The position numbers and the translations under genes are program-made. A stretch of 64,000 nucleotides of DNA. Origin: Bacillota bacterium. Lineage in GTDB: Bacteria; Bacillota; Clostridia; Caldicoprobacterales; DTU083. This document shows positions 5,349 through 48,607 of the stretch, one piece after another (position 1 is the stretch's first letter; every line of letters begins with the position of its first letter). The stretch covers positions 1 through 64,000 of the forward strand of contig JAKPIB010000047.1 of assembly GCA_029549985.1 (NCBI GenBank). Reading direction: 5' to 3'. The notes beneath the pieces were generated by a model that saw nothing but the letters and a program-made list of their open reading frames with translations, was not told the DNA's origin and did not search any database.

Positions 5349-7256
5349 TTATCTGGGCTTGACCTTGTTGCGGACGAACACTTCGGCGAAGGGTGCATAG
5401 GCACGGTTGAGGATGGCGATTTCTTCGTACTCCTCCTCGGTCCTTGGTAAGGGCATCATCCTGTCATACTTCTTAAATTCGTCCTCCATGGGCAAGCCCT
5501 TTGAGGTGGCTGAGTTTTCCCATATGGCCATTACATTCTGGTACAGGTTTATAGCGATGGCATTGTCATTGGTAGCCCAGGCTATGCGGCCTACCAGGTC
5601 CCGGTATTCCTGCTCGTCGTTGATGTAGAGCAGTGAGCTGACTGCTTCCTTCATGTTGAGCTCCTTGCCCTCGTAGTCCTTCAGGATAAGGGGAGCAGCA
5701 CTCAGGTCTATACCGGCTTTTTCGGTGATGTCGCCATAGTAGCTTGAAAATGCCTTATAGGGATCGGATATGTTCCAGGTCATATCTACGAAGTCGATCA
5801 TCATGTCATAGGCGCCGGCCTTCATGTTTGAAACGACGATGGTTGCCTCAACGGCCTTTGCTTCGGTCTCAAACCCAAACTCCGTGAGCTGGCGGGCGAC
5901 TTCGCTGGCGGCTGTGATGCCTTGTGCCCCCCAGCCGGCATTGGCCGCGATCACGAACCTGTAGGACCGGCCGTTCCTGTCGACCCATTTGCCCTGGCTG
6001 TTTTTGGTCCAGCCTGCATCCTCGAGCATTTTGGCCGCCTTCTCGGTGTTGCCTGTATAACGGGCAAACTTGGCAAGCACGTCCTTGTCTACGTATTTTT
6101 CTATGGTCGACGGCACAAGCCCGATGGTGGCAAACCCGGTCTCAACAGCCCAGTAGTTGGCGACTTCCCTGACAGGCTTTTTGTTGATCACTTCATTCAG
6201 GGCCTGGCGGACCAGCTTGTCATTCAGGGGCTGGACCCGGGTGTTGAAGATAACGCCGACCGACTTTTGCTCAAGAAGCGGGTACATGACCATGGTGCCG
6301 CTGGCATCCAGGATCGTGCGCGCCATATCATAGGGCAGGGTGCCTACGAAGGAATCGGTCTCATTGCTGGAAAGCAGGGAGTTGTAGTCAGAGACAGTTT
6401 GCATCTTGATCTTCTGGAACTCCAGCTTGTCACTGTCCGGGAAGTAGGGATTGACTACCAGGTCGACCTCCACGTTGGTGACCTTGTCTACCATGTATGG
6501 TCCTGTTCCGATCGGCTTTTCCATATCGACATTCTTGAAGTCGTTGTACAGGTTCTTCAGAGCCGTCTGGTCATCTTTTTCGAAAACCAGCCCGAAGGGC
6601 GGCCTTTTTGTCGGGTCGCCTGTGTAGGGTGTCCCTTTCTTCATGATCTCGGCTACCTGTTCGACAAACTCACCGAATATGTGGTAGGGTGTTACGGCCT
6701 GCCAGCCCTCGGCGAGCAGGAGCATTTTCTGGGTGTCGGATATCACAGGCTCGGCCCAGACAAACTCCAGCGTATAGTCATCCACAACGTTGATCGCCTC
6801 AAGGTATCTGGTGATCGCTGACGAGTTGATGTTTATCAGGTAATATGCCCACATGTCCTTTGCAGTGAAGTCGGTCCCGTCGCTCCACTTCCTGTTGTCA
6901 TGCAGGACTACTGTTGTCTTGTTGCCTTCATGCTTCCATTCCTTTGCGAGCCTCGGTACGACCCTGTCGGTGCCTACTATGACCAGGAACATGGACTCAT
7001 ATACGTAATAGCCCACATCTCCTACCTGGGCGCCTATCAGGTTGCCTCCGAATCCGGGAGGTGCCGGCCAGTAGCCTCCTGCGATCCTCTTGACCCTTTC
7101 CTTGTTTGCGACAGGGCCCGAATCAGAGTCATTGGTGGGGCTTGTGCCGGGATCGTTGCCGGTGTTGCTGTAGCAGGCAGTTAGTACAAAAATGAGGACT
7201 AGGATCAGCACAAAGGAGAATATCTGTCTTAGCCTCATAACTGTCAGGTTTCTCAT
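5349..7256 (-). CDS. Lipoprotein solute-binding protein, SBP_bac_5 family
   Basis: Extracellular substrate-binding component of the adjacent importer, 635 residues. It has a signal peptide with lipobox LTAC (Cys about residue 28), a Ser/Thr/Asp linker, then the family-5 fold: VPRLAKEWKHEG, KWSDGTDFTAKDMWAYY and GTGPYMVDK are hallmark segments. It is longer than the usual 500-560 residues, as often seen for sugar-oligomer binders of this family in Clostridia and thermophiles. AGGAG lies 10 bases upstream. A TATAAT (7353-7348) and a 32-bp motif shared with the AraC promoter (7411-7442) precede it. A substrate cannot be named; the neighbouring hydrolases suggest plant oligosaccharides. Confidence 0.9.
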   Translation of the reverse strand: MRNLTVMRLRQIFSFVLILVLIFVLTACYSNTGNDPGTSPTNDSDSGPVANKERVKRIAGGYWPAPPGFGGNLIGAQVGDVGYYVYESMFLVIVGTDRVVPRLAKEWKHEGNKTTVVLHDNRKWSDGTDFTAKDMWAYYLININSSAITRYLEAINVVDDYTLEFVWAEPVISDTQKMLLLAEGWQAVTPYHIFGEFVEQVAEIMKKGTPYTGDPTKRPPFGLVFEKDDQTALKNLYNDFKNVDMEKPIGTGPYMVDKVTNVEVDLVVNPYFPDSDKLEFQKIKMQTVSDYNSLLSSNETDSFVGTLPYDMARTILDASGTMVMYPLLEQKSVGVIFNTRVQPLNDKLVRQALNEVINKKPVREVANYWAVETGFATIGLVPSTIEKYVDKDVLAKFARYTGNTEKAAKMLEDAGWTKNSQGKWVDRNGRSYRFVIAANAGWGAQGITAASEVARQLTEFGFETEAKAVEATIVVSNMKAGAYDMMIDFVDMTWNISDPYKAFSSYYGDITEKAGIDLSAAPLILKDYEGKELNMKEAVSSLLYINDEQEYRDLVGRIAWATNDNAIAINLYQNVMAIWENSATSKGLPMEDEFKKYDRMMPLPRTEEEYEEIAILNRAYAPFAEVFVRNKVKPR

Positions 7257-7410
7257 TTCTCAACGGCTCCTTTCTGTTTGCACTGGGCAAAGGATTCAAA
7301 ATGGCGTTTGGGGTATATTTTGTTATAAATGCATAAATTAAGCGATAATTATAGTTAAGATGATACAAGCTCTATAACCATTGTATAGTACCGGCATCAG
7401 CTTCTCAACA

Positions 7411-7442
7411 ACATTATTGCATTACTTTAGTACAATATTGAC
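7411..7442. promoter_or_regulatory. Candidate AraC-type operator upstream of the importer operon
   Basis: The motif acattattg-N12-acaatattgac occurs here and again, with identical 12-base spacing, at 12512-12543 between the AraC gene and the glycosidase-like gene. The halves TTATTG and CAATAT form an imperfect inverted repeat. The site is about 58 bases upstream of a TATAAT at 7353-7348 (minus strand) that lacks a good -35 element, which fits an activator-dependent promoter. That the local AraC protein binds here is inference. Confidence 0.5.
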
Positions 7443-7456
7443 GATATATATACGGG

Positions 7457-8464
7457 TCAGCCTGCAGCCTCCCAGAGGGCCTGCGAGACTGCCTTGAGGT
7501 TCTCAGCAGGGGTATCCGGTGGGACCTCGCAGCCGGCTGCGATGATAGACGTAGGCGAGGATTGGGCCAGGCAGGTGTTGACTGCGTTTTTGACAGTTTC
7601 CACTTTCCCCTCAAGCAATACGGCCACCGGGTCAAAATTGCCGCAGGCGCTTATCGTTGTGCCGCATAGCTCATTAGCCCTTTTGAAATCAACCATCCAG
7701 TCGCAGTCGATCATGTCCGCGCCGGTCTCCACGACCATATCCAGGATCTTGTTTATATTGCCGCATATGTGCAGCTTTGCCTTGCCGCCTGCCTTGTGGA
7801 TCTCATCGATGAGCCGCTTTTCATAGGGGAAGGCGAACTCCATATACATCTGCGGCCCGATCAGGGATGCAGCGGCATCGCCTATGCCGATTATCCGGGC
7901 TCCGGCTTTTATCTGGGCCAGGGCGAACCTTATCGCCCCCTCGGTGCAGATCTCAAGCAGGTCCTTTACTGCGTCAGGCTCGAGCATGACGTCGATCATC
8001 ATGTTGTAGAGGTCGCGCAGATCACAGGCCTCGGCAAAAGCGCCTTCCACCCAGCCCTGCACCGCGCATTCCGATCCTGCCTGCTCTGACAGGTATCTTA
8101 CGGCCATCAGCCTGTCATTGGTCCGTCTCGACGCCTCGGGCGAAAACACCTTCAGCTTGCTGATATCGCTCAGCTCCTGCAGCAGGGGCCTGGCGGCATA
8201 GGGGACCCCGTTTTCCGGGAACACGATTTCAGACCCAAAGGCCTCGGCCTCTCTCATAGGGTCGGATATCACACTCAGGATATCCAGGTCAAAGTCCTCC
8301 CTGCAGCGGAGCGCAGCCTCGGCAAGCACCCTGTAGTCCGTGACAAACTCTCTGTAGGAGGCCCCAATGTATTTGGCGCCAAAACCCATGATGATGCAAT
8401 TGTTCGGCACCCTGTCCACAGGCTTTCCCTGCATCCGGGCAAACAGCCTCTCATATGAATTCAT
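7457..8464 (-). CDS. Uroporphyrinogen decarboxylase (URO-D)-family methyltransferase-like protein
   Basis: 335-residue TIM-barrel protein of the URO-D superfamily, the branch that includes MtaA/MtbA-type corrinoid methyltransferases rather than the heme enzyme HemE. The start MNSYERLFARMQGKPVDRVP is typical of that branch. KLHICGN carries the H-x-C pair that, with a later Cys (SACGNFDP), usually binds catalytic zinc in the methyltransferases. A GGGAGG lies 8 bases upstream. It sits in a sugar-use cluster 18 bases after a DUF1680 gene, and such URO-D-like genes are frequent in carbohydrate clusters of Clostridia with unknown roles. The substrate is not known. Confidence 0.8.
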   Translation of the reverse strand: MNSYERLFARMQGKPVDRVPNNCIIMGFGAKYIGASYREFVTDYRVLAEAALRCREDFDLDILSVISDPMREAEAFGSEIVFPENGVPYAARPLLQELSDISKLKVFSPEASRRTNDRLMAVRYLSEQAGSECAVQGWVEGAFAEACDLRDLYNMMIDVMLEPDAVKDLLEICTEGAIRFALAQIKAGARIIGIGDAAASLIGPQMYMEFAFPYEKRLIDEIHKAGGKAKLHICGNINKILDMVVETGADMIDCDWMVDFKRANELCGTTISACGNFDPVAVLLEGKVETVKNAVNTCLAQSSPTSIIAAGCEVPPDTPAENLKAVSQALWEAAG

Positions 8465-8482
8465 TGCATATACCTCCCAAAG

Positions 8483-10420
8483 TTATTTTCGACCCCATAT
8501 GTCCTCAACCATGGGGAAAGTCGTTCTTCGGAGTATGGTGCACCCGATCGGGACCAGATCGACCCATCGGGGGATACCCCAGGATGACAGCATTTTCACC
8601 TGGAGCTTCACGGGGGACTTATCCCATTCGTACCCTGCTTCATCGGTCTGACTTATCCTTATATAGTTGTCCGGCCTGTTGTGATCATACAGGAGGGTAT
8701 AGTTCCAGTCCGCGCCTTTCACGGGCCTGTAGTTCGTATCGCAGAAGGGCTTAAGGTCGTAATGGAAATAGTCCTCTGCTTCGGCTTCGATATTGAGTGA
8801 ATACAACAGCGGTCCATAGGCTACGGCAAAGGTGCCGTCAACAGCCTTCACAAGCCTTGGCCTGGCCTTGAAAGTGACCTCTATCGTGTCTCTGTCCCTG
8901 AAAATGCGCTCCAGCCTGACTGTCTGTCCCTTGCCGGACCTTATCAGCTCTTCTCCGGCCGATGCGCCGTTGACCAAGACTTCACAGCCAGTGCTCCATC
9001 CGGGCACCCGCAGATACAGGCATGTGTCAAACTCCCTGTCGGCTGAGATATGGAACGTCACATGGTTCTCAAAGGGGTAGGCGGTTTTCTCCTCTATCGT
9101 TACCTCAGCATCTCCGACCCTGGTCTTCAGGATGCAGGGGCCGTAGTAAACGGCGTGCAGCGATTCCCTCTCATCCGTCAGCCACATCCTCGATAAGTGG
9201 CCGGGCATGACCTTGCCCGAGTTGGGCGCACAGCATACGGCAGCATCCGTATGGGTGGGGGAATAATCCCACCTGTCCCCGATGGCCTTGGAAGCCTCAT
9301 AGAGGTTGTCAGCGCACAGGTACTGGATGGCCTTGCCGTCAGACCTCTTAGCAGCCATGGCCGCATTCATCACGAGCCATTCCTCCATGTCTGCGTACTC
9401 CATGTCCATGGTTTCCATAACTGCGCTGTTGAAGGAGAGCATAAGCTCCGTAGTGGAGCAGTACTCATAGCCCAGGCCCGGGATGGGATAGCAGTGCCAG
9501 ATATCCAGGCCTTCCTGTTTTACTTCGGATACATGGCCGTAGTAGGCCCCGATAAGCTCATCGGACTTGCATGAGCCGGACAAAGTCATATAGCGCTTCA
9601 GCTTGTCGACGGCACTTTTAAAGACCGAACAATACAGCTCGTTTCCCGTGGCCTTGTACAGCAGCAGCGGGATCCTGAGCTGCTCTGCCGTATGGGGCCC
9701 GTGCCCCACAAAGGGTACTTCGGGGTCCTGAGCCAGGTCGCAGCTTAAGTCATAGCAGGGGAACTTTGCATATTTCGCATATCTGGTATAGTCCTCGTAC
9801 AAAAATACGCAAAAGTCCAGATACTCGGGCTTTTTGGAGTGGTCATAGAGATAAAGCAGGGGCTCTATGATCATCAGGCTGTGGGTCTTGCTCCCGTCCT
9901 CGTCGGGTATCTGATAGAGGGACCGCCCACCTGCCAGGGGCCCGAACTTCGTCACGATCAGGTCGGCCAGCCTTTCCAGGGCCTTTAGGACCTGATCGTC
10001 CCTTGTATTTTCGTAATATGTGATCAGGCAGCCCATGATCCTGCTCTGGGTCCAGAGCTCGCCGCTCCTCGCTCCGTTGCCGAACCGTTCATTTGCCTGG
10101 AATATGCCTATATAACCGTCCTCGTCCTGGTATTGCAATATCCTTTCCACATACCGGGTGACCCGCTGCACAAGGTCCTCATCGCCGAGGGCAAAAGCCA
10201 GACGGGCCAGGGCGTCCCTCCAGTTCCCCTCCGTCTCGCCGGGCCACCAGGAGCTCCATACGCCGTTTGTTTCATCCTTTACCTTTTTATCTTCAAAGAT
10301 ACCGCTGGCCGCATCCTCGCACAGGTGCTCCAGCTTGCCTGTTATACCTTCCTTGTCCCTTTTCAGGTGCTCCAATATCCATCCCGCGGGGATGATCCTT
10401 CCATTTATCGGTTTCAACAT
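8483..10420 (-). CDS. DUF1680/GH127-like glycoside hydrolase
   Basis: 645-residue predicted cytoplasmic hydrolase with no signal peptide. The N-terminal half is an (alpha/alpha)6 barrel (WPGETEGNWRDALARLAFA, ILQYQDEDGYIGIFQ), and the second half is beta-sandwich-like (YLRVPGWSTGCEVLVNG), as in GH127/GH146-type beta-L-arabinofuranosidases. A CCAPN motif resembles the CCPPN region that holds the nucleophilic Cys in GH127, with a Glu in CSTTELM as candidate partner, but alignment is loose. ATG at 10420 is chosen because GAGGAG precedes it by 7 bases; an ATG at 10435 has no ribosome site. It starts just after the stop of the 10440-12452 gene, so the two are coupled. The exact sugar is not predictable. 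Confidence 0.75.
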   Translation of the reverse strand: MLKPINGRIIPAGWILEHLKRDKEGITGKLEHLCEDAASGIFEDKKVKDETNGVWSSWWPGETEGNWRDALARLAFALGDEDLVQRVTRYVERILQYQDEDGYIGIFQANERFGNGARSGELWTQSRIMGCLITYYENTRDDQVLKALERLADLIVTKFGPLAGGRSLYQIPDEDGSKTHSLMIIEPLLYLYDHSKKPEYLDFCVFLYEDYTRYAKYAKFPCYDLSCDLAQDPEVPFVGHGPHTAEQLRIPLLLYKATGNELYCSVFKSAVDKLKRYMTLSGSCKSDELIGAYYGHVSEVKQEGLDIWHCYPIPGLGYEYCSTTELMLSFNSAVMETMDMEYADMEEWLVMNAAMAAKRSDGKAIQYLCADNLYEASKAIGDRWDYSPTHTDAAVCCAPNSGKVMPGHLSRMWLTDERESLHAVYYGPCILKTRVGDAEVTIEEKTAYPFENHVTFHISADREFDTCLYLRVPGWSTGCEVLVNGASAGEELIRSGKGQTVRLERIFRDRDTIEVTFKARPRLVKAVDGTFAVAYGPLLYSLNIEAEAEDYFHYDLKPFCDTNYRPVKGADWNYTLLYDHNRPDNYIRISQTDEAGYEWDKSPVKLQVKMLSSWGIPRWVDLVPIGCTILRRTTFPMVEDIWGRK

Positions 10421-10439
10421 CTTGCTGCTCCTCATCTAG

Positions 10440-12452
10440 TTATCGTAATTTAAGGTCACCCTGCCTGTAGAAGGGTATATACTTGCCATCTGTATGGTGC
10501 AAAAACAGCAGGTCCTCGCCCTCAAAGTCAATGGTCAGGTCCTTGTGCCTTACATGCACCGAAAGGCGATTGTGTACTGCCCTTTCGCCGTCTGATGTGA
10601 ATATCAATGACCCGTCCTGCAAGACGCACCCGTTTTCAAACCTGTTTGCGGCTATACCCCATTCCCTTAGCGCGGCAATGATCTCCTCAGGGCAGTAGAT
10701 TTCGGATAATCTCACACCCCTATTTAGCACAGCCAGGTAGTCCTCTGACACTCGTGACCCGTCATCGTACACCTCTGCCTCGCCTGCGACTATAAGGCGG
10801 GACTCATCAAGCCCTGAAAGAAAGGCATAGCAGGCAGGGCTCATGCTGTCCGGGGCCAGCAGGACCACCGCGTCATACCTTTGGGTCCCGTACACTGCCT
10901 TGCCGTCCTCCAGGGACAGGCTGCCGTTCTCGATCTCGGTGGTGGGCACCAGGTCGCACAAAAATGACCTGAAGACAGTATCCGCACACCTGAGGACCGG
11001 GGTCAGCACCTTGTGATATGAAAACCAGGGCGGGTTTGGGTCATCATTGTAGAACCAGTTCAGGGCATTTTGCATGCCAAAGAGGATGAGCACCCGGCAG
11101 TCAGGGGAAGCCGTCTGGACATGGTCGATCTCCCTTATGACCGCATCCATCTCCTCTATGCTCTCAAGCAGCCCTCTGGGCTTAAGCTCCAGGACCACAG
11201 GCTCATTGGGGCATTCATAGCCCAGATAGTGGGTCCTGCCGCCATAGCGGACATTGTTCCAGGTCTCACGGTAATACGTGTTTATATCTCTGGTCCCCAT
11301 GGAGTACCACATGTTGTACCAATAGGGGCAGCGCCATTTATGGGCCAGGGCCGTCCTTATGGGCATGATGACTATCTCGTCGGTCTGGGCGATGTCCCTC
11401 CTGGCTTCCCACCAGTAGAAGCCGTTTTTGAAGCCCTCGAAGTTCTGCAGGTAGTTGTTGCCCCACCACGTGGGATGGACCCCGTAAAAGGCTCCCTCGC
11501 CCAGCTTTGCCTTGGCCAGGGCATACATTTCCTCATCGTTTTGCCGCATGATCTCCCGAAGGGCCTTGTGATAGGCATTGACGCACGAAATGCTCCGGCT
11601 GCGGCCGTCCTCTTCCTGGTAGTACATATAGATGAGATCATCGATGAGCCTGCGGCCGCACACCTTGGCATACCGCTCATCAAGATAAGCGGAATAGCTT
11701 ATGCACTCAAAATAGATCTCGGTTGTTTTACTTGAGCCCTCTTGCGCCTCAATGATCCTGAAACCGACATCATAGCCCCATTCATCGGAGGCTGCTCCGT
11801 CAATATCAAAGCCAGCTATGTCGTCGAGCATCTCGCTGTAAAGCTCCATCAGGCCGGGTGAGCCCAGGTCCGGGATAGGCTGGGGTATGCCGATGAACAT
11901 GTCGACTGTACGGCCTGCATTCTCACTTCCTGCATCGATCCTCGCAACAAGGCTCTCGTCGGTCTGGCCTTCTATCGTGATGAAATGATCGCACCTTTGG
12001 CAGCTTCCTTTTCTGATCTTGCCGTCCGTTTTGTCAAATATGAAGGCTGCCAGGAGGCCAGGCTTGACATGGCTGATCGTCCGCCAGTAATGGGGGATCT
12101 TCTTTGTCTCCATTTCGATCCTGCCGGTCCCGTCAGGCGTCAGCCTGACTTCTGTCGGCGTGGTCAAATAAGCGACATCATTCGGATACCTTTCAAAGAA
12201 GGCTTCCCCTTCGTTGCGCGGGCAGACTTCAACGATGGTCCTTCTGCCTCGCTTTTTCAGCTCCCTGCTGCAAAAGCTGAGCGCTTCCAGCAGCCTGGGG
12301 TCATTGAACCTCCGCCTTATCCAGTGGAGCCCTATGAAAATATTGCTTATATCCGTGCGGCTGCACAGGTCTTCTATGCTTGCAGCCAGATCGCTTTCCA
12401 GGACCGAATCGTCCCATTTCCAGTAGAGAATGCTTCTGTTGCATGTATCCAT
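10440..12452 (-). CDS. Glycosidase-like protein of unassigned family
   Basis: 670-residue protein I cannot place in a named family. The N-terminal part looks like a TIM barrel (SILYWKWDDSVLESDLAASIED, FIGLHWIRRRF, ASDEWGYDVGF with acidic residues at a strand end). Around residues 470-600 there is a flavodoxin/glutamine-amidotransferase-like stretch (CRVLILFGMQNALNWF, YDAVVLLAPDSMSPACYAFL, SRLIVAGEAEVYDDG) like the trimerisation domain of GH42 beta-galactosidases. A short beta domain ends the protein. No signal peptide, so it should act inside the cell. ATG 12452 is chosen over an upstream start because GGAGG lies 9 bases before it. It is divergent from the AraC gene and coupled to the DUF1680 gene. 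Confidence 0.6.
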   Translation of the reverse strand: MDTCNRSILYWKWDDSVLESDLAASIEDLCSRTDISNIFIGLHWIRRRFNDPRLLEALSFCSRELKKRGRRTIVEVCPRNEGEAFFERYPNDVAYLTTPTEVRLTPDGTGRIEMETKKIPHYWRTISHVKPGLLAAFIFDKTDGKIRKGSCQRCDHFITIEGQTDESLVARIDAGSENAGRTVDMFIGIPQPIPDLGSPGLMELYSEMLDDIAGFDIDGAASDEWGYDVGFRIIEAQEGSSKTTEIYFECISYSAYLDERYAKVCGRRLIDDLIYMYYQEEDGRSRSISCVNAYHKALREIMRQNDEEMYALAKAKLGEGAFYGVHPTWWGNNYLQNFEGFKNGFYWWEARRDIAQTDEIVIMPIRTALAHKWRCPYWYNMWYSMGTRDINTYYRETWNNVRYGGRTHYLGYECPNEPVVLELKPRGLLESIEEMDAVIREIDHVQTASPDCRVLILFGMQNALNWFYNDDPNPPWFSYHKVLTPVLRCADTVFRSFLCDLVPTTEIENGSLSLEDGKAVYGTQRYDAVVLLAPDSMSPACYAFLSGLDESRLIVAGEAEVYDDGSRVSEDYLAVLNRGVRLSEIYCPEEIIAALREWGIAANRFENGCVLQDGSLIFTSDGERAVHNRLSVHVRHKDLTIDFEGEDLLFLHHTDGKYIPFYRQGDLKLR

Positions 12453-12497
12453 ACAAAGCCTCCGGTCGTGTGGTAGCTTAATTATATAGGGTGTGAC

Positions 12498-12589
12498 ATA
12501 TGCATACCATGACATTATTGTTTAAGACTAAAACAATATTGACTTTTTGCATGCCTGATTGTTAAAATCAACTATACCGGTATGCATAT
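12498..12589. promoter_or_regulatory. Divergent promoter region with operator and flanking inverted repeat
   Basis: This intergenic region between the glycosidase-like gene (minus) and the AraC gene (plus) contains the 32-bp motif acattattg-N12-acaatattgac at 12512-12543. It is framed by an 11-bp inverted repeat, ATATGCATACC at 12498-12508 and GGTATGCATAT at 12579-12589. A TATAAT for the minus-strand gene lies at 12486-12481 with a poor -35. For the plus strand, TTGACT at 12539-12544 overlaps the motif and could be a -35 for the AraC gene, which would allow self-regulation. Function is inferred from repetition and position. Confidence 0.5.
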
Positions 12590-12657
12590 TTTCAGTGAAA
12601 GGTACAAAACAAAGATCCCTGCATAGCGGGATCCCGTGGGTACAGGAGCTTATTGAT

Positions 12658-13566
12658 ATGAACGTTAATCAGGCTGAGGGTTTGCTTTCCTCGATACCGC
12701 ATGAAAATATCATCATGCCAAATGCCGAGCTGCCGATCAACTTTATCGAGCATCAGACCAACTCGACAGGGCCCTTTTGCATCTCCCACTGGCACAATGA
12801 GCTGGAAATAGTCTATGTCAAGCAGGGCACAGTCTGCCTGCACAACAGGACAGGCTCCATCGAAGCCTTTCCGGGTGACATCCTGTTCATCAACAGCAAC
12901 GAGCCCCATGGCTACAGCATTACAGAGGCACCAATAGTACTATATTGTACTACCATCAGCCCCACCCTCCTCCAGGGGCGTTACCTGACCAGCTATGACT
13001 CCCAGTTCATCCCCTCGTCCTACCCGCTTACCATATTTGAAAACTACATCCACGATGACCCGGCGATAGTCAATCATTTTCTTAATCTATGGGAGGAAGG
13101 CAAGCAGCAGGAAAGGGGCTATGAATACGCTATCAAGTCAAATCTGTACGGGATTTTCGCTATCCTGGTCCGGAAATATACCAGGTCCACGATATCAAAC
13201 AGGCAGTTCGTATTAAAAAACCGCAATATACACAATATTAACAAGATCATGGAATATATCGAAGCCCACTATCAGGAGGACATAAGCATAGACGAGCTGG
13301 CAGACCTCCTGAACATAAACAAGTTCTATTTCTGCAGGCTGTTTAAAGAAATAACCGGCTTTACACCGGTCAAGTATATCAACAATTTTCGCGTGCATCA
13401 GGCGATAGCCCTCATAAAGCAGCATCCCGAGCTGTCGATCACGGACATAGCCACCCAGGTAGGCTACAATGACTCCAACTATTTCGCCAGGGTCTTTAAG
13501 GAGGTAACGAACAAGTCCCCCTCAGCCTTTAAGAAAGACTGGTTGAGCAGCCAGAATGTCCACTGA
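12658..13566 (+). CDS. AraC-family transcriptional regulator
   Basis: 302-residue DNA-binding regulator. The N-terminal half is a cupin-like ligand-binding domain (HWHNELEIVYVKQGT, FPGDILFINSNEPHGY). The last 100 residues hold two helix-turn-helix motifs: ISIDELADLLNINKFYFCRLF with FKEITGFTPVKYI, and SITDIATQVGYNDSNYFAR with FKEVTNKSPSAF, the classic AraC signature. The reading frame is open from a TTG at 12559, but ATG 12658 has AGGAG 9 bases upstream and begins near the domain. It is the only plus-strand gene between the importer and the amylase, so it probably controls the carbohydrate cluster, sensing a sugar. Targets are suggested by the shared 32-bp motif. Confidence 0.92.
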   Translation: MNVNQAEGLLSSIPHENIIMPNAELPINFIEHQTNSTGPFCISHWHNELEIVYVKQGTVCLHNRTGSIEAFPGDILFINSNEPHGYSITEAPIVLYCTTISPTLLQGRYLTSYDSQFIPSSYPLTIFENYIHDDPAIVNHFLNLWEEGKQQERGYEYAIKSNLYGIFAILVRKYTRSTISNRQFVLKNRNIHNINKIMEYIEAHYQEDISIDELADLLNINKFYFCRLFKEITGFTPVKYINNFRVHQAIALIKQHPELSITDIATQVGYNDSNYFARVFKEVTNKSPSAFKKDWLSSQNVH

Positions 13567-13636
13567 TGCAGGCCTGGAAATCATAGGTTTGGATAAAAAG
13601 GCTCATATATAAAAGCTAAGTACAGATGTCTAAAGC

Positions 13637-14410
13637 TCATATGCCAAAAAGCCTGGCAGCGTTTTTATACATCACATGCTCCCACTTGGCGTGGTCGTCC
13701 TGATAGGCCCGGAGCAGCTGCTCATAAAAGGCATAGCTCCTTGCCCCGTCTATAGGCGCATCGGTCCCGAATATCATTTTTTCAGGGCCGCAAATCTCTA
13801 CTGCCTTCAAAACCTTGTCAAAGTGTACCCAGGTCGTATCCCCTATCAGATTGTCAGCCTGTCCAAGACACTCTATTGCCTCTTCATTGTCTGAACACAA
13901 CCCCATATGGACCATTATGAAGTTGACACGGGGAAACCTTTTTGCCATGGCCAGCAGCTGGCCCGGACCGGACAGGCTGTCATTGGCCGTGTGGACAGAT
14001 ACGGGTAAGTCAAGTGCCTCGGCGATATCTATGTACGGGTCATATCTGGCATCCTCCAAGGGCAGCCTCGAGTAAAAGGGATGAAGCTTCAGCCCCCTGA
14101 CATAATGCCTGTTTTCCCTGATGAAAGAATACACCTCGTCGATATTACCTTCCGTTGCGGGCTTGCACCAGAAGGAGATATAAAGGTCCTTGCCGCAGCC
14201 CTTTATTTTCTCCAGCAGCTCTTTGTTTGCTTCGATCTGGGGCTTTTGGTCCTCCAAAAGCTCGTCCGCATCAGGCCTGTACTCACAGCATTCTATAGAG
14301 GATATCAGCCCCTTGTCTATCCCATGGGCCTCCATGAGAGAGATCAGCAAAGAAAAATCCAGGTCGAACATCACCTTTTTACCATAGTGCAAATGGGTGT
14401 CTATGATCAT
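13637..14410 (-). CDS. Amidohydrolase-2-family TIM-barrel hydrolase
   Basis: 257-residue metal-dependent hydrolase-like protein. The opening MIIDTHLHYG holds the HxH metal ligands; VSVHTAN gives a third His, FIMVHMG a fourth, and FGTDAPIDG the catalytic Asp, which together are the amidohydrolase superfamily pattern. It ends NAARLFGI, as amidohydrolase-2 proteins commonly do. AAGGGG precedes the ATG. It is four bases downstream of the GH13 gene, so both should be on one transcript. Relatives include decarboxylases and lactonases, so the reaction cannot be specified. Confidence 0.85.
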   Translation of the reverse strand: MIIDTHLHYGKKVMFDLDFSLLISLMEAHGIDKGLISSIECCEYRPDADELLEDQKPQIEANKELLEKIKGCGKDLYISFWCKPATEGNIDEVYSFIRENRHYVRGLKLHPFYSRLPLEDARYDPYIDIAEALDLPVSVHTANDSLSGPGQLLAMAKRFPRVNFIMVHMGLCSDNEEAIECLGQADNLIGDTTWVHFDKVLKAVEICGPEKMIFGTDAPIDGARSYAFYEQLLRAYQDDHAKWEHVMYKNAARLFGI

Positions 14411-14414
14411 ACGA

Positions 14415-16172
14415 TCACCCCTTTATCAGCTTTAGTATCCTGACTCCGTAAGCATCCATGGGCAGGCTCAGCAGGCCGTCCCGGGCCTTGAAGCCTTCCT
14501 GGGTAAGCAGGTCCTCATAGGTGCCATTGCCTGCGGGCAGGGATACTGACGTGGCATTAGTTGCATTATTGAACACGCAGATGATGCTGTTTTGGTCCAG
14601 TACTCTGGCAAAGCTGTAGACATTGCCGGCATTGTCGGCATGGAGAGGCCGGTAATCCCCGTATATGAGCTCCTCGTTTTCCCGTCTCAGCCTTATCAGC
14701 TTTTTGAAGCAACTGTGTATGGATGCAGACCGCTCATCGTCCTCCCATATCATCTTCCGGCGGGCATCATTTATATCCCTGCCTTCAACGCCCTTTTCAT
14801 CCCCATAGTACACGGAGGGCAGCCCTACATATGTCATAATGAAGGCGGCAGCCATTTTCAGCTTATCCACATTTGCGCCGGCGATCGTGAAAAAGCGGGC
14901 TACATCATGATTATCGATAAAGTTCATCATAGCCTGTGTGTTGTCCTTGGGGTACAGCATCGTTAAGCGGTTCACAGCTTCGCTGAACTGATGGGCATTG
15001 ACCGAGTTCAGGCCGAAAAACTCCCAGATGGCATACATGAGTGGAAAGTTCATGACGGAATGGAACTGGTCCCGCCCTATCCATGATGATGCATCGTGCC
15101 ATACCTCGCCGATCAGGACGAAATCCTTCTTTAGCTTGTCCATCTCATGGCGGAGCCTGCGCCAAAACTCATGGGGGAGCTCATTTGCGACGTCCAGACG
15201 GTAGCCGTCCACATCGTACTCCCTGACCCAATACCTGGCTACATCGAGCAGGTACTCCTCCACCTCAAGGTTGTCAGTGTTGAACTTGGGCATGGTCTCA
15301 TAAAAGCCAAAGGTCTCGTAGTTGGGGGCCTTGCCGCCCTTTACAGGGAACGACTCGATGTGGTACCAGCCCGCATATCCGGAGTTTGCGCCGTTTTCAA
15401 CAACATCCCTGAATGCAAAGAATTTGTTGCTGCTTTGGTTGAACACGATATTAAGCATCACTCGTATACCGTTGCTGTGACAAATCTCAACGAGCTCTTT
15501 CAGATCGTCATTGGTGCCCAGGCATGGGTCCACCTTGTAATAATCGACTGTGTCATATTTGTGATAGGAAAGTGCAGTGAAGACCGGATTGAGGTAAATG
15601 AGATTCACACCTAAGTCTTTTATATATGATATGTTGTCGATGATCCCCCTCAGGGTACCGCCGAATCTTGATTCTGCCTTCACATCCCCTTCTACCGTGT
15701 GGCTGGCAGGCTGTTCTGTTATCCTGCCTTTGCCGTTTGCAAAGCTGTCGGGGAATATCTGGTACATCACGCTTTCCTTCAGCCATGCAGGCACGTGGGG
15801 AGTATCCCGCCTGTGCAGATACGGAAACTGGAAGAGGCGCTGGCGGCCCCAGCTGAACACATCGCTAAAGCCGTCCTGGTACATGTAGACGTGGTTTCCG
15901 TCTTTATCGATCAGTGAGAAATAATAGCACATGCGCCTATAGGCACACTTGAATTCAGCCTGGAAGTAGTCATACAGCTCATCGCTCATGACCTTTTGCA
16001 AGGGGATCCTGATACAATCCCGCTTTATATGGAAATCATACCGGTCGTCATATATCAATACAGCCTGGGACAGGTCCCCCTTTTTGGCCTTGAGCGTGAT
16101 CACCACATTACCGTCATCAGTCAGATAACACATACTGCTGTCCGCTTTGTGGATCAATGCCTCTTTGAACAT
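14415..16172 (-). CDS. GH13 neopullulanase/cyclomaltodextrinase-like alpha-glucan hydrolase
   Basis: 585-residue cytoplasmic enzyme expected to hydrolyse alpha-1,4 (and possibly cyclic or branched) maltooligosaccharides. An N-terminal CBM34-like beta domain (residues 1-125) precedes the catalytic barrel. The GH13 regions are clear: nucleophile Asp327 in DGYRLDVANE, acid/base Glu356 in LIGEVWHD, and Asp423 in FIDNHDVAR. A C-terminal beta domain ends the protein. There is no signal peptide, so imported oligomers are the likely substrate. AAGGAG lies 9 bases upstream. It forms a two-gene unit with the amidohydrolase and borders the AT-rich inserted segment on its upstream side. Confidence 0.93.
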   Translation of the reverse strand: MFKEALIHKADSSMCYLTDDGNVVITLKAKKGDLSQAVLIYDDRYDFHIKRDCIRIPLQKVMSDELYDYFQAEFKCAYRRMCYYFSLIDKDGNHVYMYQDGFSDVFSWGRQRLFQFPYLHRRDTPHVPAWLKESVMYQIFPDSFANGKGRITEQPASHTVEGDVKAESRFGGTLRGIIDNISYIKDLGVNLIYLNPVFTALSYHKYDTVDYYKVDPCLGTNDDLKELVEICHSNGIRVMLNIVFNQSSNKFFAFRDVVENGANSGYAGWYHIESFPVKGGKAPNYETFGFYETMPKFNTDNLEVEEYLLDVARYWVREYDVDGYRLDVANELPHEFWRRLRHEMDKLKKDFVLIGEVWHDASSWIGRDQFHSVMNFPLMYAIWEFFGLNSVNAHQFSEAVNRLTMLYPKDNTQAMMNFIDNHDVARFFTIAGANVDKLKMAAAFIMTYVGLPSVYYGDEKGVEGRDINDARRKMIWEDDERSASIHSCFKKLIRLRRENEELIYGDYRPLHADNAGNVYSFARVLDQNSIICVFNNATNATSVSLPAGNGTYEDLLTQEGFKARDGLLSLPMDAYGVRILKLIKG

Positions 16173-16403
16173 GGGCTCATCTCCTTAAGGCTTTTTGTAT
16201 ATTATACAGGCTGCCCATGCAAAGCACTATGATTATATTGCAGTATGTGAAGGCTGATATTGATGATTTGAACATGTATAGCGAAGCCGTACTTTTGCAC
16301 TTGTTCTATATTATTTAATCTACCTGTGCTCTCAATGTATTAGCCATTTACATAAGTCTTCTTCAATTGCATCTAGACAGGCAAGACAAAAAATTACTGG
16401 TAA

Positions 16404-17630
16404 TCACTTTAGCATTATTTGCTCAAGCTGTCTTAGATAATTCTCTATATACGCTTCACTCTTATCTTGATTACGCAAGGCTTCTCTTTTCTGGCTGAGC
16501 AGATAATCAATAGCCCTTCTTCTTACTTCATCTGTGCAATATAACCTTATTAATCTGCCGCTATGCTCTTGTCCAGATATCGGTATCAGGTTGTTGTACG
16601 CCAGATCATATAAAGGTTCCTTATCGTCAGCTTCTATCCAACCATCTACGTCATGCATCAAAACCTCTAAGGCAAGGTTTTGATCACTTTCTAACGCTAG
16701 GTTTGAAGAACTTATTTTTTGACTTAAAGAAGCTCCCCATAGCCTGACTTCTTCTGTTTTTGCTAATAGGTCATCACTGACGTAGAGAGATGAAAAAACA
16801 TACCAAATTTTATCATAGTTTTTCTTGATGAGTTCTTCAAAAAAATCATCCCGTTTTCCCGAGGCAACGTTATATACAGCAAAATCTAGCATTTCATGTG
16901 ATCTTACCTTATCAACAAATCCGTTAATGGTATCAATGATTGCAATATATATAGGAACGAAATATATGATGCCTTTTGACAATATCTCTGTTTGCTTATA
17001 GTCTAGTACTCCTTCGTCGATTTTGATATCTATCATTTCCTGAGGGATATTATATTTTAGTCTATCTTCCCCATCATACCTTAGTAGACCTCGAATCATA
17101 TCCTGAGGCAAGTCCTCCCATATATCCAACACATTTGCCCCTTTAAAGTCCTCCCAATCCAACGGTGACAAAAATACTGTCTCTCGAGGATTGTAATATT
17201 TCTCAGGCAATGGCTGAAGAGATAATGCATCAAAGTAAATAAGTCTTGCACTACGTTCTATTTTTAGCTTATCACCTTTCATTAGCGACTCTTCACCCAG
17301 CGGTGTCAACCTTAGTTTGCCATTTTGTTCATCTATATGGTTTATCGACATCAAGTACTCCAATGTATTGTTGCTCAATTGTTTGAATTCATCGATTCCC
17401 ATGGTCCTGAAAAGGCTTACTCTATCATCGATGTCAGTTTGATGCAAAAGCCTCTCCATATTTCTTTCTATCTCTTCATAGGGCTCGGAGGTACGCTCTG
17501 TTATCTCAACAGGCAGACAATAAACAGGGTAATCAACTTTTACAAAGCGCCTTACCTGATCGCGATCAACAGAGACATATTTATTAAGTATAGTTTTTGC
17601 AGGTTTTTGCTTTCTTTTGACTGACTTCAT
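16404..17630 (-). CDS. Unknown protein coupled to UPF1-like helicase
   Basis: 408-residue protein I do not recognise. Residues about 50-105 look like a winged-helix unit ending in DEQNGKLRLTPLGEESLM, a pattern typical of the wing of DNA-binding domains. The rest mixes helical and hydrophobic segments (ILSKGIIYFVPIYIAIID) and ends in a charged helix (SEAYIENYLRQLEQIMLK). There is no signal peptide, no clear nuclease motif and no PLD HxK motif. ATG 17630 has AGGGGG 9 bases upstream; an ATG at 17654 directly abuts the helicase stop (TAGATG) and is an alternative. Codon use is AT-rich, matching the helicase gene. Coupling implies the two work together; the context would fit a defence or RNA/DNA surveillance function, but that is inference. 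Confidence 0.6.
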   Translation of the reverse strand: MKSVKRKQKPAKTILNKYVSVDRDQVRRFVKVDYPVYCLPVEITERTSEPYEEIERNMERLLHQTDIDDRVSLFRTMGIDEFKQLSNNTLEYLMSINHIDEQNGKLRLTPLGEESLMKGDKLKIERSARLIYFDALSLQPLPEKYYNPRETVFLSPLDWEDFKGANVLDIWEDLPQDMIRGLLRYDGEDRLKYNIPQEMIDIKIDEGVLDYKQTEILSKGIIYFVPIYIAIIDTINGFVDKVRSHEMLDFAVYNVASGKRDDFFEELIKKNYDKIWYVFSSLYVSDDLLAKTEEVRLWGASLSQKISSSNLALESDQNLALEVLMHDVDGWIEADDKEPLYDLAYNNLIPISGQEHSGRLIRLYCTDEVRRRAIDYLLSQKREALRNQDKSEAYIENYLRQLEQIMLK

Positions 17631-17654
17631 TTTCCACAGCCCCCTGTAACTCAT

Positions 17655-20447
17655 CTACAGCCTTGATGCCAGTTCGTCCCAGTTAATATATACTCCATTG
17701 TTCTTCACATACTTCACAAGGTTAATGAAAAACTGTCGGGACTTTATATTCCTGGCTTTCGTAAGTGTTTCCGAGTCGCCCACCATTATCAGCATATATT
17801 TTGCCCTTGTCATTGTCACATTAATTCTGCGAAGTTCACTCAGGAAACCTATTGCATGTTCTTCGTTACTCCTTGTAAAGCTGAATATTATAATATTCTT
17901 ATCTCGCCCCTGAAAAGAATCTACCGTATCTATTTCGAGCTTGTCTATGACCTCGATAATATCGGCCTCATCCATTCCCCTTGCATTCATAGTACCGATA
18001 ATGTTTTCATAAATTTCTGTTTTTTGGCGCTTATATGGTGTTATGATACCAATGTCATCAGCCTTGATTCCATCACTCAGCAGATTTATCAGGATATTAG
18101 ATATGATGTCTGCTTCAAGTATATTGTAGTATACATTGTGATCGCCATCTATTTCAACCTGTTCGAAGCGCCGGGCTGAGCAACTTAGTGTATCTACGAA
18201 ATAAAGAGGCTTGTTGAAAACAGATAGCTTGAGCTCTCTGGCGCTGCTGCTCACACCGGATTTATATTTGCCTTCATAGAACTCATTTGATATAAATTCA
18301 GCTATTATAGGATGCATCCTATACTGCTGATCCAGCATGATTTTGTTTTCATTAGGACAAGAATAAAACAGTGTTTCGAATAGACTTTGACCGAGGAGCT
18401 TACTAGCATCATCATAAATATAGCCCTCACCGTCTTCACCAGCAGCCCTCTCTTCCTCGATCTCCTTGATAAGGCTTTCATCACAAGTAGGTGGCAGCTG
18501 CATATGGTCTCCAATCAATATAACCTTTTTAGCCCTGGACATAGGCACTATAATATCAAAAATGGTTATCTGCCCTGCCTCGTCAATGATTGCTATATCA
18601 AAGTCGGTACTTTTAAATTCGGCACTAGTATTTATCCCTATACATGTCGCACCTACAACCATAACAGAGTCAAGCAAAAGTGGATACAAAGACTGTTGCC
18701 TTTGTTCCAGTGAATCCTTCCAATCTTTTATGATAACGCTCTTTCTCTTAAACTTTTGGTATAACTCCTTTTCCCAAGCTATCCCTTTTTGAATATCATC
18801 CCGGGACATAGCCTCATAATCAAAAGTCTTGTAATCCTTTATAGAATCTAATGCCTTATCAATTATTACCTTGTGTATGACCATGCTTTGCTTTGATTCG
18901 TCCCAAAGCTCCTTAGTCTTTACATATATCTTATCTTTACAGAGCTTGTCTTCTATAAATTTATTAAGATCAGATCTTTTAGTCTCTACTAAGTCCTGAT
19001 TTGACCTAATAAGTGCCATAACCTTAAACAAAGATAGCTGGATATATTTATAAAAGTGGATAACTTTGATAAGCTTCTCCCGTCTGGTCATCTTTGACTG
19101 CAGTATTCTTAGCTTATCTCGCAGCTCAATGAAGTACAGCATATGTTCTTTCTGTTCATCCAATATATCACACAATTTCTCCTGGTTTTTAGTCTGCTGC
19201 AAAATTTCGACCTGACGATTATCGCAGTTATTTATTATATCCCTTTGGAGTTCCACTGCCGCTCTGTCTATTAAACGCTTTTTAACTGAATCCAGCTTAA
19301 CTCTTTCCTCCTGGCCAAGTCGTATACAGGAAATATTGTTCTTTATACATTTTTCAAGTACATTGTCTACTGCTAAATGGTTTTTAGAGCTTACCAGTAC
19401 CCTTTTACCTTGCGCAACAAACTCCTTTAGCATCTCTACTATAATACTAGTTTTTCCTGTACCCGGAGGCCCTTGAACCAGTAAAAAATCCTTAGTATGT
19501 AATGCCAGATTAACCGCCATTTCCTGTGAATGGTTCAGTCCAGGATAGCTTTTGGGCAAAAAGTCAGGAATGTCCTCGTACCTATTGTCTATAATAATGT
19601 CTAAAAGGCTTTTGTTGACAGCTCTGCCCTCTACCAGATCATTTACTGCCTTTGCTTGTATGCGATATGATAAATTGAAAGCGGCTTGCAGCAGATAACC
19701 TGACGCAGGAAATTTGCCAAAATCAATAGTCGATTGAAAGGCTATTATAATGTATTTATTAGAAGCTGAGTACTCTACCACTATTCCCTTAAGTACGATA
19801 TCATCCGGGTTAACAAATGGCACAGCAGCTACAATAAGCTCCTTACCGATGAGTCCATCTACCAGCTCATCCTCTCTGAAGTCTGACAGGATAAACTTAT
19901 ACGAAACCCCTACAACCCTTGCAGAGGTAACAGGTTCATAGCTCTTATATGCAAACTGGACTGCCTTTGCATTAGATACTTCATAATCATTTTGAAAATC
20001 GATAAACTCCCTCATTTCCTTTGCCCAAGCCAGTCGCTCCTGATATTTCTGATCTATCTGTACTTTTTTATTATCATTATAGTCTTGGTGGAAATTTCTT
20101 ATCTTACTCGAAATAAAGTATATTTTTTCTGCTGCTATGCAGCTATATCTATTTTTGGGTAATTGCCAGTATTCTCCGCTTACAAAAGTAAAGCCGCCTG
20201 ATAAATAAAGCTTTACCCCGTATTTTACAGAGTTTAGTCTATCATATGCATTTTTTTCTGATATTCCGATGATTTTAAAATAAGAGTTGTGATGCTCTCT
20301 GGCATCTATATGGACACATGTCAGCTTGAGCTTTTCAGTGTGGAAATAGTACCTGAACTCACCCCTGTACTCATTATAAGCCACGTCCGCCCATATCCAT
20401 CTAAGCCTGTTCATCTCACCTTTGACTATATCCATATAGCCTTCCAT
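17655..20447 (-). CDS. UPF1/DNA2-like superfamily 1 helicase
   Basis: About 930-residue ATP-dependent nucleic acid helicase. SF1 motifs occur in order: I (QGPPGTGKTS, about 325-333), II (IIDEAGQ, about 622), III (LIGDHMQLPP), IV (DQQYRMHP), V (VDSFQGRDKNIIIFS) and VI (RRINVTMTRAK). Between Ia and II is a charged, coiled-coil-like insertion of roughly 200 residues. The N-terminal 320 residues include a beta-barrel-like region before the helicase core. The frame is open a further 80 codons upstream, but that stretch is a Ser/Pro-rich antisense of the plus-strand gene fragment, so I take the Met at 20447, although its ribosome site is poor. Relatives occur in phage-defence systems such as Mokosh, but here no kinase or PLD nuclease is visible. 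Confidence 0.85.
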   Translation of the reverse strand: MEGYMDIVKGEMNRLRWIWADVAYNEYRGEFRYYFHTEKLKLTCVHIDAREHHNSYFKIIGISEKNAYDRLNSVKYGVKLYLSGGFTFVSGEYWQLPKNRYSCIAAEKIYFISSKIRNFHQDYNDNKKVQIDQKYQERLAWAKEMREFIDFQNDYEVSNAKAVQFAYKSYEPVTSARVVGVSYKFILSDFREDELVDGLIGKELIVAAVPFVNPDDIVLKGIVVEYSASNKYIIIAFQSTIDFGKFPASGYLLQAAFNLSYRIQAKAVNDLVEGRAVNKSLLDIIIDNRYEDIPDFLPKSYPGLNHSQEMAVNLALHTKDFLLVQGPPGTGKTSIIVEMLKEFVAQGKRVLVSSKNHLAVDNVLEKCIKNNISCIRLGQEERVKLDSVKKRLIDRAAVELQRDIINNCDNRQVEILQQTKNQEKLCDILDEQKEHMLYFIELRDKLRILQSKMTRREKLIKVIHFYKYIQLSLFKVMALIRSNQDLVETKRSDLNKFIEDKLCKDKIYVKTKELWDESKQSMVIHKVIIDKALDSIKDYKTFDYEAMSRDDIQKGIAWEKELYQKFKRKSVIIKDWKDSLEQRQQSLYPLLLDSVMVVGATCIGINTSAEFKSTDFDIAIIDEAGQITIFDIIVPMSRAKKVILIGDHMQLPPTCDESLIKEIEEERAAGEDGEGYIYDDASKLLGQSLFETLFYSCPNENKIMLDQQYRMHPIIAEFISNEFYEGKYKSGVSSSARELKLSVFNKPLYFVDTLSCSARRFEQVEIDGDHNVYYNILEADIISNILINLLSDGIKADDIGIITPYKRQKTEIYENIIGTMNARGMDEADIIEVIDKLEIDTVDSFQGRDKNIIIFSFTRSNEEHAIGFLSELRRINVTMTRAKYMLIMVGDSETLTKARNIKSRQFFINLVKYVKNNGVYINWDELASRL

Positions 20448-20463
20448 GCTAGATATGAAATAA

Positions 20464-21183
20464 AAGGTCACAGGTCTATTTATTGTAACATCTCGTCCTG
20501 AACCCGGAGGACCGTCTGATGAAAATGAAGATGGAGACGAAAATGGAGATAATGACGATAACGGAGATGACGCTGATACCGAAGAACCGAAGGACGAAGA
20601 GCCGGCTGTGACTGAAAAGCATGCCGGGAACGCAACCGTAACATACAATGACGGCGTGATGGCCGGCATGGGCCTGCAAAACGTCAAGGATGGCCAACTG
20701 ACGACATCCTATGTGAGCGAAGACAATCCTGATATGAGCAACCAGCGGCAGTACATACAGTTCAGATGGGATTCCCCGATCGACTTCAATCAGGTTGTCC
20801 TGTTTTCACAGTACTGCGGGGCTCCCGGGGGCCCCGGCCAGGCCCCCACTGCATGGGAGATCCTGGTGTCGGAAAATGGGACTGACGGCTGGCACAAGGT
20901 CGCCCAAATCGGAAAGGTACAATGGGCAGCAGGCGACCAGGTCCAGTCCCGTACCTTGAATATGGAAAGGGTCAAGGGCATAAAGGGCGTAAGGGTGGTC
21001 ATAACGGATGCAAACCTTGACTGGAACCACTATGCCATATATGAGATCGAAATAAACAATGTGCCCAACAACAACCCCAAGACAGGTGACGGAATGGTGG
21101 TTGTCCCCATTATAGCCCTGATAGCCTCCCTGGCCATCCTCGGTGTATTGAGCTTCAGAAAAAGACTGACAAGCAGGATATAG
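20464..21183 (+). pseudogene. Decapitated 3' part of a sortase-anchored surface protein gene
   Basis: An open frame without an obvious start runs from just after a stop at 20461. It encodes an acidic Asp/Glu/Asn/Gly linker, then a 110-residue F5/8-type-C-like (discoidin) domain (QYIQFRWDSPIDFNQVVLFS, TAWEILVSENGTDGWHKVAQ, VRVVITDANLDWNHYAIYEIE), and a wall-sorting signal: NNNPKTGD, a hydrophobic stretch and RKRLTSRI. Such modules normally sit at the end of large secreted carbohydrate-active proteins. The 5' part is missing and is replaced by the AT-rich helicase segment. A GTG at 20608 could in principle start a short product, but it would lack a signal peptide. Confidence 0.75.
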
Positions 21184-21208
21184 GATAAGGATATTAAATC
21201 ATAATAAG

Positions 21209-21238
21209 ACCCGGCTTTAGCGCCGGGTTTCTTTTTTT
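21209..21238 (+). terminator. Rho-independent terminator
   Basis: A perfect 7-bp stem ACCCGGC/GCCGGGT with a 6-base loop is followed by a T-rich tract. It lies 26 bases after the stop of the truncated sortase-substrate gene and terminates plus-strand transcription. Confidence 0.9.
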
Positions 21239-21253
21239 ATACTAGGCAGGATC

Positions 21254-47650: not shown

Positions 47651-47719
47651 TAATATAAGTACGTTTAGACAATCTTGATACCTTTTATAAATAACCAAAG
47701 CTTATTCAGGAGGTGCACC

Positions 47720-48577
47720 ATGGGACGATTCAGCATCAGAAAAATACTGGACAACAAGATCGTCAACAACGCTATAATCATCGTCTGCACCGTCACTTTG
47801 ATATACAGCTTGTTTATGATCGGTTCTACCTTTTTTTACAGCTTGCGGGGCAATGAGATCATGGACGATCTGCAGAAGATCATGAATAACAAGCAATATG
47901 TAAGGAAATCCTTCCACGAGGTCAGCTTCGATTCCATACTGAGCACCATCACGCTCAACCTCGACCCGGAGAACGGGGGCAATGACCCGGAAGAGCGCAG
48001 CCTAGAGGTGCTTGACAAATACAAGGACCTGGTGCTGATAAATGAAGATATAATCGGTTGGATAAAGGTGCCGGGCACCGACATTGACTATCCGATCGTA
48101 CAGGGCAGAGACAACAGCCAGTATCTTAATATGACCCATACGGGTGAATCAAACCGCCACGGGGCTATATTCATGGACTACAGAAACAGCAAATACTTCG
48201 ATGATATGAACACCGTCATATACGGCCACAACATGAGGCTCAAGCCCCACATGTTCAGGCCCCTGCCCCAGAATTATCAGAATGAGGATTTCTTCTACAA
48301 CAACAGGGTCATACAGGTAGACTCCATTTATGAGGAGCAGAAATGGGAGATATTCTCCGTATATGTAACGGAGGTCACGTTCAATTACACCAAGACCAGG
48401 TTCAACACCCCTGAAGAATTCACGACCTTTATCCAGGAAATCAAGAAAAAGTCCTTGTTCCCTACTGACACTGAAGTAACGGAAGACGATTGCATACTGA
48501 CATTGTCCACCTGCACCTATGAGTTCAGTAATGCCAGATTCGTAGTACATGCCAAAAAAATAAAGGATGAAGGCTAA
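47720..48577 (+). CDS. srtB: Class B sortase
   Basis: 285-residue membrane-bound transpeptidase that attaches surface proteins to peptidoglycan. One N-terminal membrane helix (NNAIIIVCTVTLIYSLFMIG) precedes the class B domain. The catalytic residues are His170 (YGHNM), Cys265 (LSTCTYEF) and Arg273 (NARFVV), with the extra helix and length typical of class B. ATG 47720 is chosen for its AGGAGG 7 bases upstream; the frame extends 15 codons more. First gene of an operon with a MORN-repeat protein, GH27 and GH26. In C. difficile SrtB recognises (S/P)PxTG-type motifs; five proteins in this window bear NPQTG, NPKTG, APKTG or PPQTG. Confidence 0.93.
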   Translation: MGRFSIRKILDNKIVNNAIIIVCTVTLIYSLFMIGSTFFYSLRGNEIMDDLQKIMNNKQYVRKSFHEVSFDSILSTITLNLDPENGGNDPEERSLEVLDKYKDLVLINEDIIGWIKVPGTDIDYPIVQGRDNSQYLNMTHTGESNRHGAIFMDYRNSKYFDDMNTVIYGHNMRLKPHMFRPLPQNYQNEDFFYNNRVIQVDSIYEEQKWEIFSVYVTEVTFNYTKTRFNTPEEFTTFIQEIKKKSLFPTDTEVTEDDCILTLSTCTYEFSNARFVVHAKKIKDEG

Positions 48578-48607
48578 GGCCTGAGAGTCTACCAAAGGGG
48601 ACTTTAT

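Follow-up and report, generated by a model that had tools for sequence, protein, structure and literature searches.

A UPF1-like helicase and its winged-helix partner in a Clostridia genome as the probable remnant of a split Mokosh type I-like operon

The window analysed here is a stretch of 64,000 nucleotides (G000:C21:1-64000) from a Clostridia draft genome of 2.11 Mb, assembled into 52 contigs and 96.7% complete. Two genes on its minus strand, running leftwards, encode a helicase (17655-20447 or 17655-20471, depending on the start codon) and a partner protein (16404-17654). Both frames are open and lie where a sequence-only reading of the window had placed them. That reading described two coupled, AT-rich genes in GC-rich surroundings, and base composition agrees: the partner has a GC content of 37.7% and the helicase of 38.3%, or about 38% for the pair against 51-52% for the surroundings and 50-54% for most neighbouring genes. 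At third codon positions the pair has 36-40% GC and most neighbours 61-69%; a neighbouring AraC gene has 46.9% GC overall and 63.7% at third positions. The tetranucleotide profile of 16173-20490 correlates with that of the rest of the contig at 0.32-0.44, compared with 0.67-0.73 for the rest against itself. The helicase stop codon TAG (17655-17657) directly abuts the ATG of the partner (17652-17654), forming TAGATG. The left neighbour of the pair is an alpha-amylase-like gene (14415-16172), separated from it by an AT-rich spacer (16173-16403) with a 23-codon open stretch after the partner stop (16403-16335). Repeat searches for insertion ends around the AT-rich segment found short, chance-level repeats only, and a promoter scan was near expectation (19 observed, 15.2 expected). 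In a genome of the same genus (G001), synteny runs rightwards from window position 21247 and is broken at that point, and window 5349-20490 has no match there, using a search that worked on the window's own genome as a control; the pair therefore lies in a variable region. Elsewhere in the window, at 47675-50491, we noted by eye a sortase-like gene and, after it, a gene for a long protein with MORN-like repeats and a Pro-rich tail.

Pfam, PADLOC, motifs and fold identify the helicase (17655-20471, minus strand) as an MkoA-like, UPF1-like SF1 helicase with a truncated 5' end. It matches the Pfam domains AAA_11 (E 2e-45) and AAA_12 (E 5e-54) and the PADLOC profiles MkoA (E 1e-120, 403 bits), MkoC (6e-32) and Hhe (1e-10). 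The MkoA alignment starts at profile position 348, and this protein therefore lacks the kinase part found in fused MkoA. The SF1/UPF1 motifs had been read as complete, with a long insertion, and they are: GPPGTGKT (326-333), DEAG (622-625), GDHMQLPP (646-653), QYRMH, DSFQGRDK and NVTMTRAK are all present, and a long helical stretch separates Walker A from Walker B. The fold of the structural model, with a mean pLDDT of only 67, is nearest to UPF1, IGHMBP2 and SETX. Candidate starts are GTG 20471, which retains the first conserved strand, and ATG 20447 (930 aa); the open frame extends to a spurious TTG at 20687.

Directly downstream, the partner (16404-17654, minus strand) has 416 amino acids, or the previously described 408 from its second ATG. 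The sequence-only reading saw in it a winged-helix-like part and no recognised domain, and proposed HMM and structure searches. The model (AF2, Foldseek) has a mean pLDDT of 74, is good at residues 40-160 and predicts a winged helix of MarR-like fold at about 61-142; the alpha/beta part that follows has no match. Pfam searches of this protein (P0002) and of P0007 returned no match, PLD domain included, and the partner profile found nothing among PDB sequences. The partner is 63% identical to its counterpart in G002, a genome from the same family, and a profile search of genome contigs with a two-row partner alignment recovered G002's own record only. No partner relatives were found in a scan of IMG/VR or in tblastn searches of phages and plasmids. 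The PADLOC MkoB profiles matched only the N-terminal part of partner proteins, and the window partner alone matched weakly (E 1e-4). An HMM made from seven partners returned only partners or pieces of them, at or left over from such helicase operons (837 frames, 17 loci), and matched residues ~30-166 of PLD-type MkoB proteins on two cyanobacterial plasmids (E 4e-7 and 1e-6). True MkoB proteins, on these plasmids and in the phylum (PLDc_2 E 2e-8; those of L059, L069 and L070 all carry PLDc_2), consist of the N-terminal part plus PLDc_2 and are encoded directly behind fused kinase-helicase genes. When the partner alignment was compared by hhalign with true MkoB proteins one at a time, the similarity was not significant, whereas that in the HMM search with E-values was. 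We therefore read the partner as MkoB minus its PLD part: it is a homologue of the MkoB N-terminal part, without the PLD nuclease. The suspected affiliation with phage defence is supported.

The pair is rare and very patchily distributed, occurring in 5 of the 391 genomes of the class. A survey of co-occurrence, also proposed by the sequence-only reading, found helicase and partner together in relatives. G002 carries a five-gene operon (L005 6645-13088) with overlapping starts, encoding in order a NERD-kinase (465 aa), a kinase (302 aa), the helicase (970 aa), the partner (411 aa) and a last protein of 704 aa with a weak DUF3800 match. No remnant of a DUF3800 gene was found downstream of the window partner, spacer included, and no such gene in the rest of its genome. 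The complete one-contig chromosome of G490, from another class, has the first four of these genes, arranged alike and overlapping at their ends (L057 2493-9250). The upstream genes in these relatives encode NERD plus Pkinase and then Pkinase, and matches to MkoA are split in order, the kinase genes corresponding to its N-terminal parts and the helicase to its C-terminal part. At a second G490 locus (L058 6007-13641), a DUF4145-kinase, a kinase and the helicase precede a winged-helix partner that ends in transmembrane-like segments; within the same complete genome as L057, this ending appears as another effector swap. Plasmid AZO_p1 of Azospirillum lipoferum encodes a kinase-bearing gene, a kinase, the helicase, the partner and a CorA-like gene (L071 1322-13183) next to BREX pglZ and brxL, in a stretch without gene annotation in the record. 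G476 holds a second deletion scar (L067 4411-5196), in which a kinase piece is fused to the partner C terminus and the helicase is gone. By eye, the stretch before this kinase piece resembles the N terminus of the SNF2-type protein of L066. In G179 the pair stands alone on its contig, between an ABC-transporter gene and a nadA-like gene, and the helicase is degenerate. At L026 (1371-4930), a helicase-like protein lacking the Walker A lysine motif and the second RecA domain is followed by a partner homologue, and the short contig carries no kinase. These relatives give good support for a version of Mokosh type I that is split and lacks PLD.

The right-hand end of the window pair departs from this arrangement. 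At ~20475-20500, where homology to the helicase operon ends, the helicase frame stays open and enters the antisense strand of a gene for an LPXTG/F5-8C surface protein. Counted from the first ATG (20447), similarity to the helicases of relatives extends only 8-9 codons upstream, and the first conserved residues (VTFYFIS) lie upstream of that ATG; the native helicase start has therefore been lost. In G002 and G490, ~20-30 residues precede the first conserved strand and a kinase gene overlaps the helicase start. On the other side of the junction, only the 3' part of the LPXTG-anchored gene is present (20500-21183, plus strand), with an acidic linker, an F5/8 type C domain (Pfam F5_F8_type_C, E 5e-7), an anchor and a terminator (21207-21230). 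It begins at the junction without a start or signal peptide, and no homologue of it was found in 60 related genomes. The kinases, the start of the helicase and the 5' end of the surface-protein gene are thus all missing at this point. A search of the window's own genome for the operon kinases, in which the NERD-kinase was not a separate query, found generic kinases only (27-29%).

The sequence of both genes reflects long-term constraint, since dN between the window and G002 is 0.22 for the helicase and 0.26 for the partner while dS is saturated. In relative-rate comparisons, the helicase has 65 lineage-specific changes in the window and 52 in G002 (p 0.27); the partner has 35 and 18 (p 0.03), its rate being slightly raised in the window. 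This points to a recent deletion or to a pair that is still of some use. In a helicase tree, in which the window sequence was read from codon 20474 and some rows have long branches, the window groups with G002 and G490 (100/99), helicases linked to Cas10 stand next to this group (97/97), and helicases with separate kinases or none are set apart from fused kinase-helicases (100/99).

We consider it likely that the window pair makes up the 3' half of a split Mokosh type I-like operon gained by horizontal transfer, that the upstream kinases and the helicase start were lost, most simply by one deletion, and that the pair is probably inactive alone. The ancestral operon would have encoded a NERD-kinase, a kinase, the UPF1-like helicase and an MkoB-like winged-helix protein without PLD. 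A single deletion may have removed the kinases and the first ~20 helicase codons along with the 5' half of an LPXTG gene lying head to head; it is the simplest cause of both losses, because the ancestral order would place the kinases rightwards of the helicase, and the lost half of the surface gene leftwards of what remains of that gene. The same break could instead be an assembly join, since the genome is a 52-contig draft and the junction was judged from the assembly. A full kinase-kinase-helicase-partner operon would then exist, wrongly joined to a surface-protein contig at ~20.49 kb. Two genes without 5' ends meeting at the junction, beside an acidic repetitive linker, and the 96.7% completeness of the draft would fit such a join. 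We regard it as unlikely, as a single contig carries the AT-rich segment with both its flanks, which agree in composition, no kinase orthologue was found on the other contigs, and in the own-genome sequence compared, no repeat of at least 13 bases other than one 13-mer was seen at the junction.

The sequence-only reading offered the pair as a new two-gene unit of defence or RNA surveillance, noting that the usual Mokosh partners were not visible. The window copy does lack a kinase and a PLD domain, but kinases stand directly upstream in all the closest relatives and the window has lost them at the junction. The split version is a rare form of Mokosh, and the pair is not a new two-gene unit. 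A working minimal unit, in which helicase and partner suffice or use host nucleases, would explain why both window genes are intact and coupled, and kinase-less pairs occur in G303 and G234, with Cas10/Csx1, and in G179, with its degenerate helicase. Against it, the native helicase start and the region upstream are gone and the pair has no nuclease; we hold it improbable, and less likely than a truncated remnant. With neither a kinase nor a recognisable nuclease, the window copy probably gives no defence by itself, even though both frames are still intact. Intact genes evolving at rates near those of G002, and a GTG at 20471 that could start a full helicase domain, count against inactivity. 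A housekeeping RNA-decay factor resembling IGHMBP2/UPF1 and unrelated to defence is very improbable. UPF1 and IGHMBP2 are the closest solved structures, but the helicase scores 295 bits to the NCBIfam IGHMBP2 family, under its cut-off of 349, as opposed to 403 bits to MkoA. Nor did we find the syntenic position across relatives that a housekeeping role would predict: the distribution is very patchy, synteny breaks at 21247, the Azospirillum operon adjoins BREX genes, and a DncV-like gene stands beside fused Mokosh relatives encoded on a plasmid. A truncated remnant thus remains the most likely reading of the window copy.

Mokosh type I, as defined in PADLOC (PDLC03920-03923), pairs an MkoA kinase-helicase with an MkoB PLD protein. 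The window shares with it an SF1 helicase that is COG1112/UPF1-like and of MkoA type, and an MkoB-like winged-helix protein encoded directly downstream, and relatives add the protein kinase and NERD parts. Unlike type I, the Ser/Thr kinase (and NERD) part is absent from the window and was not found in its genome, the kinases of G002, G490 and Azospirillum are separate genes, and the window partner has no PLD, the last gene or effector varying among relatives. Mokosh type II (MkoC), a fusion of helicase and PLD in one gene, shares the helicase family; the window helicase is not fused to PLD and its match to MkoC is far weaker. The UPF1-like helicase CnuH of type II and III CoCoNuT, predicted RNA-targeting defence operons, has a helical or coiled-coil insertion (PMC11090510), as does the window helicase. 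In contrast to CoCoNuT, no McrB-type GTPase (CnuB) or other CoCoNuT gene was seen near the window, G002 or G490 pairs (frames read, without a CnuB model). In intact relatives, the helicase and winged-helix partner may form a surveillance complex for nucleic acid (RNA or single-stranded DNA), which the kinases would license or restrain; damage would be done by the NERD nuclease-related domain or by the effector encoded by the last gene.

Further relatives connect the pair with type III CRISPR components. In G303 and G234, two species of one genus, helicase and partner lie within an operon that also encodes Cas10-like (GGDD), Csm4-like and CARF-HEPN-Csx20 (Csx1) proteins (L024 6397-14221 and L025 2969-12233, respectively). 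The G234 operon, at L025, has a second CARF-HEPN gene. Unlike type III CRISPR loci, these contigs have no array-like repeats and no Cas7- or Cas11-like gene among their large frames; Rfam found no match on L024 or L025, and no type III gene was recognised in the window frames. A literature search, with most subscription journals outside its reach, found no paper on Mokosh together with Cas10. The G303/G234 operon is possibly a crRNA-independent Cas10 signalling system, in which the core may sense RNA and trigger Cas10.

The companions of helicase and partner thus vary: PLD, DUF3800, a CorA-like gene beside BREX, fused transmembrane helices and Cas10-GGDD with Csm4-like and Csx1 proteins. This suggests that helicase and MkoB N-terminal part are a core that takes different effectors. 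More tentatively, they may be an invariant sensing core within a superfamily whose members exchange effectors. In different operons this core would drive PLD, NERD/DUF3800 or membrane effectors (CorA-like and others) or, in G303 and G234, a cyclic-oligoadenylate module of Cas10/Csm4-like proteins and Csx1 that works without crRNA, the helicase pair replacing the guide-RNA backbone as detector; the window would then hold a bare copy. The window copy, which looks like a remnant, matters less than this modularity. From Clostridia to Azospirillum, the helicase remains paired with the N-terminal half of MkoB while kinase arrangement and effector change, which makes it testable which part of Mokosh senses phage. 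The relatives with Cas10 suggest that recognition by guide RNA, ahead of cyclic nucleotide signalling, can be replaced by a UPF1-like helicase.
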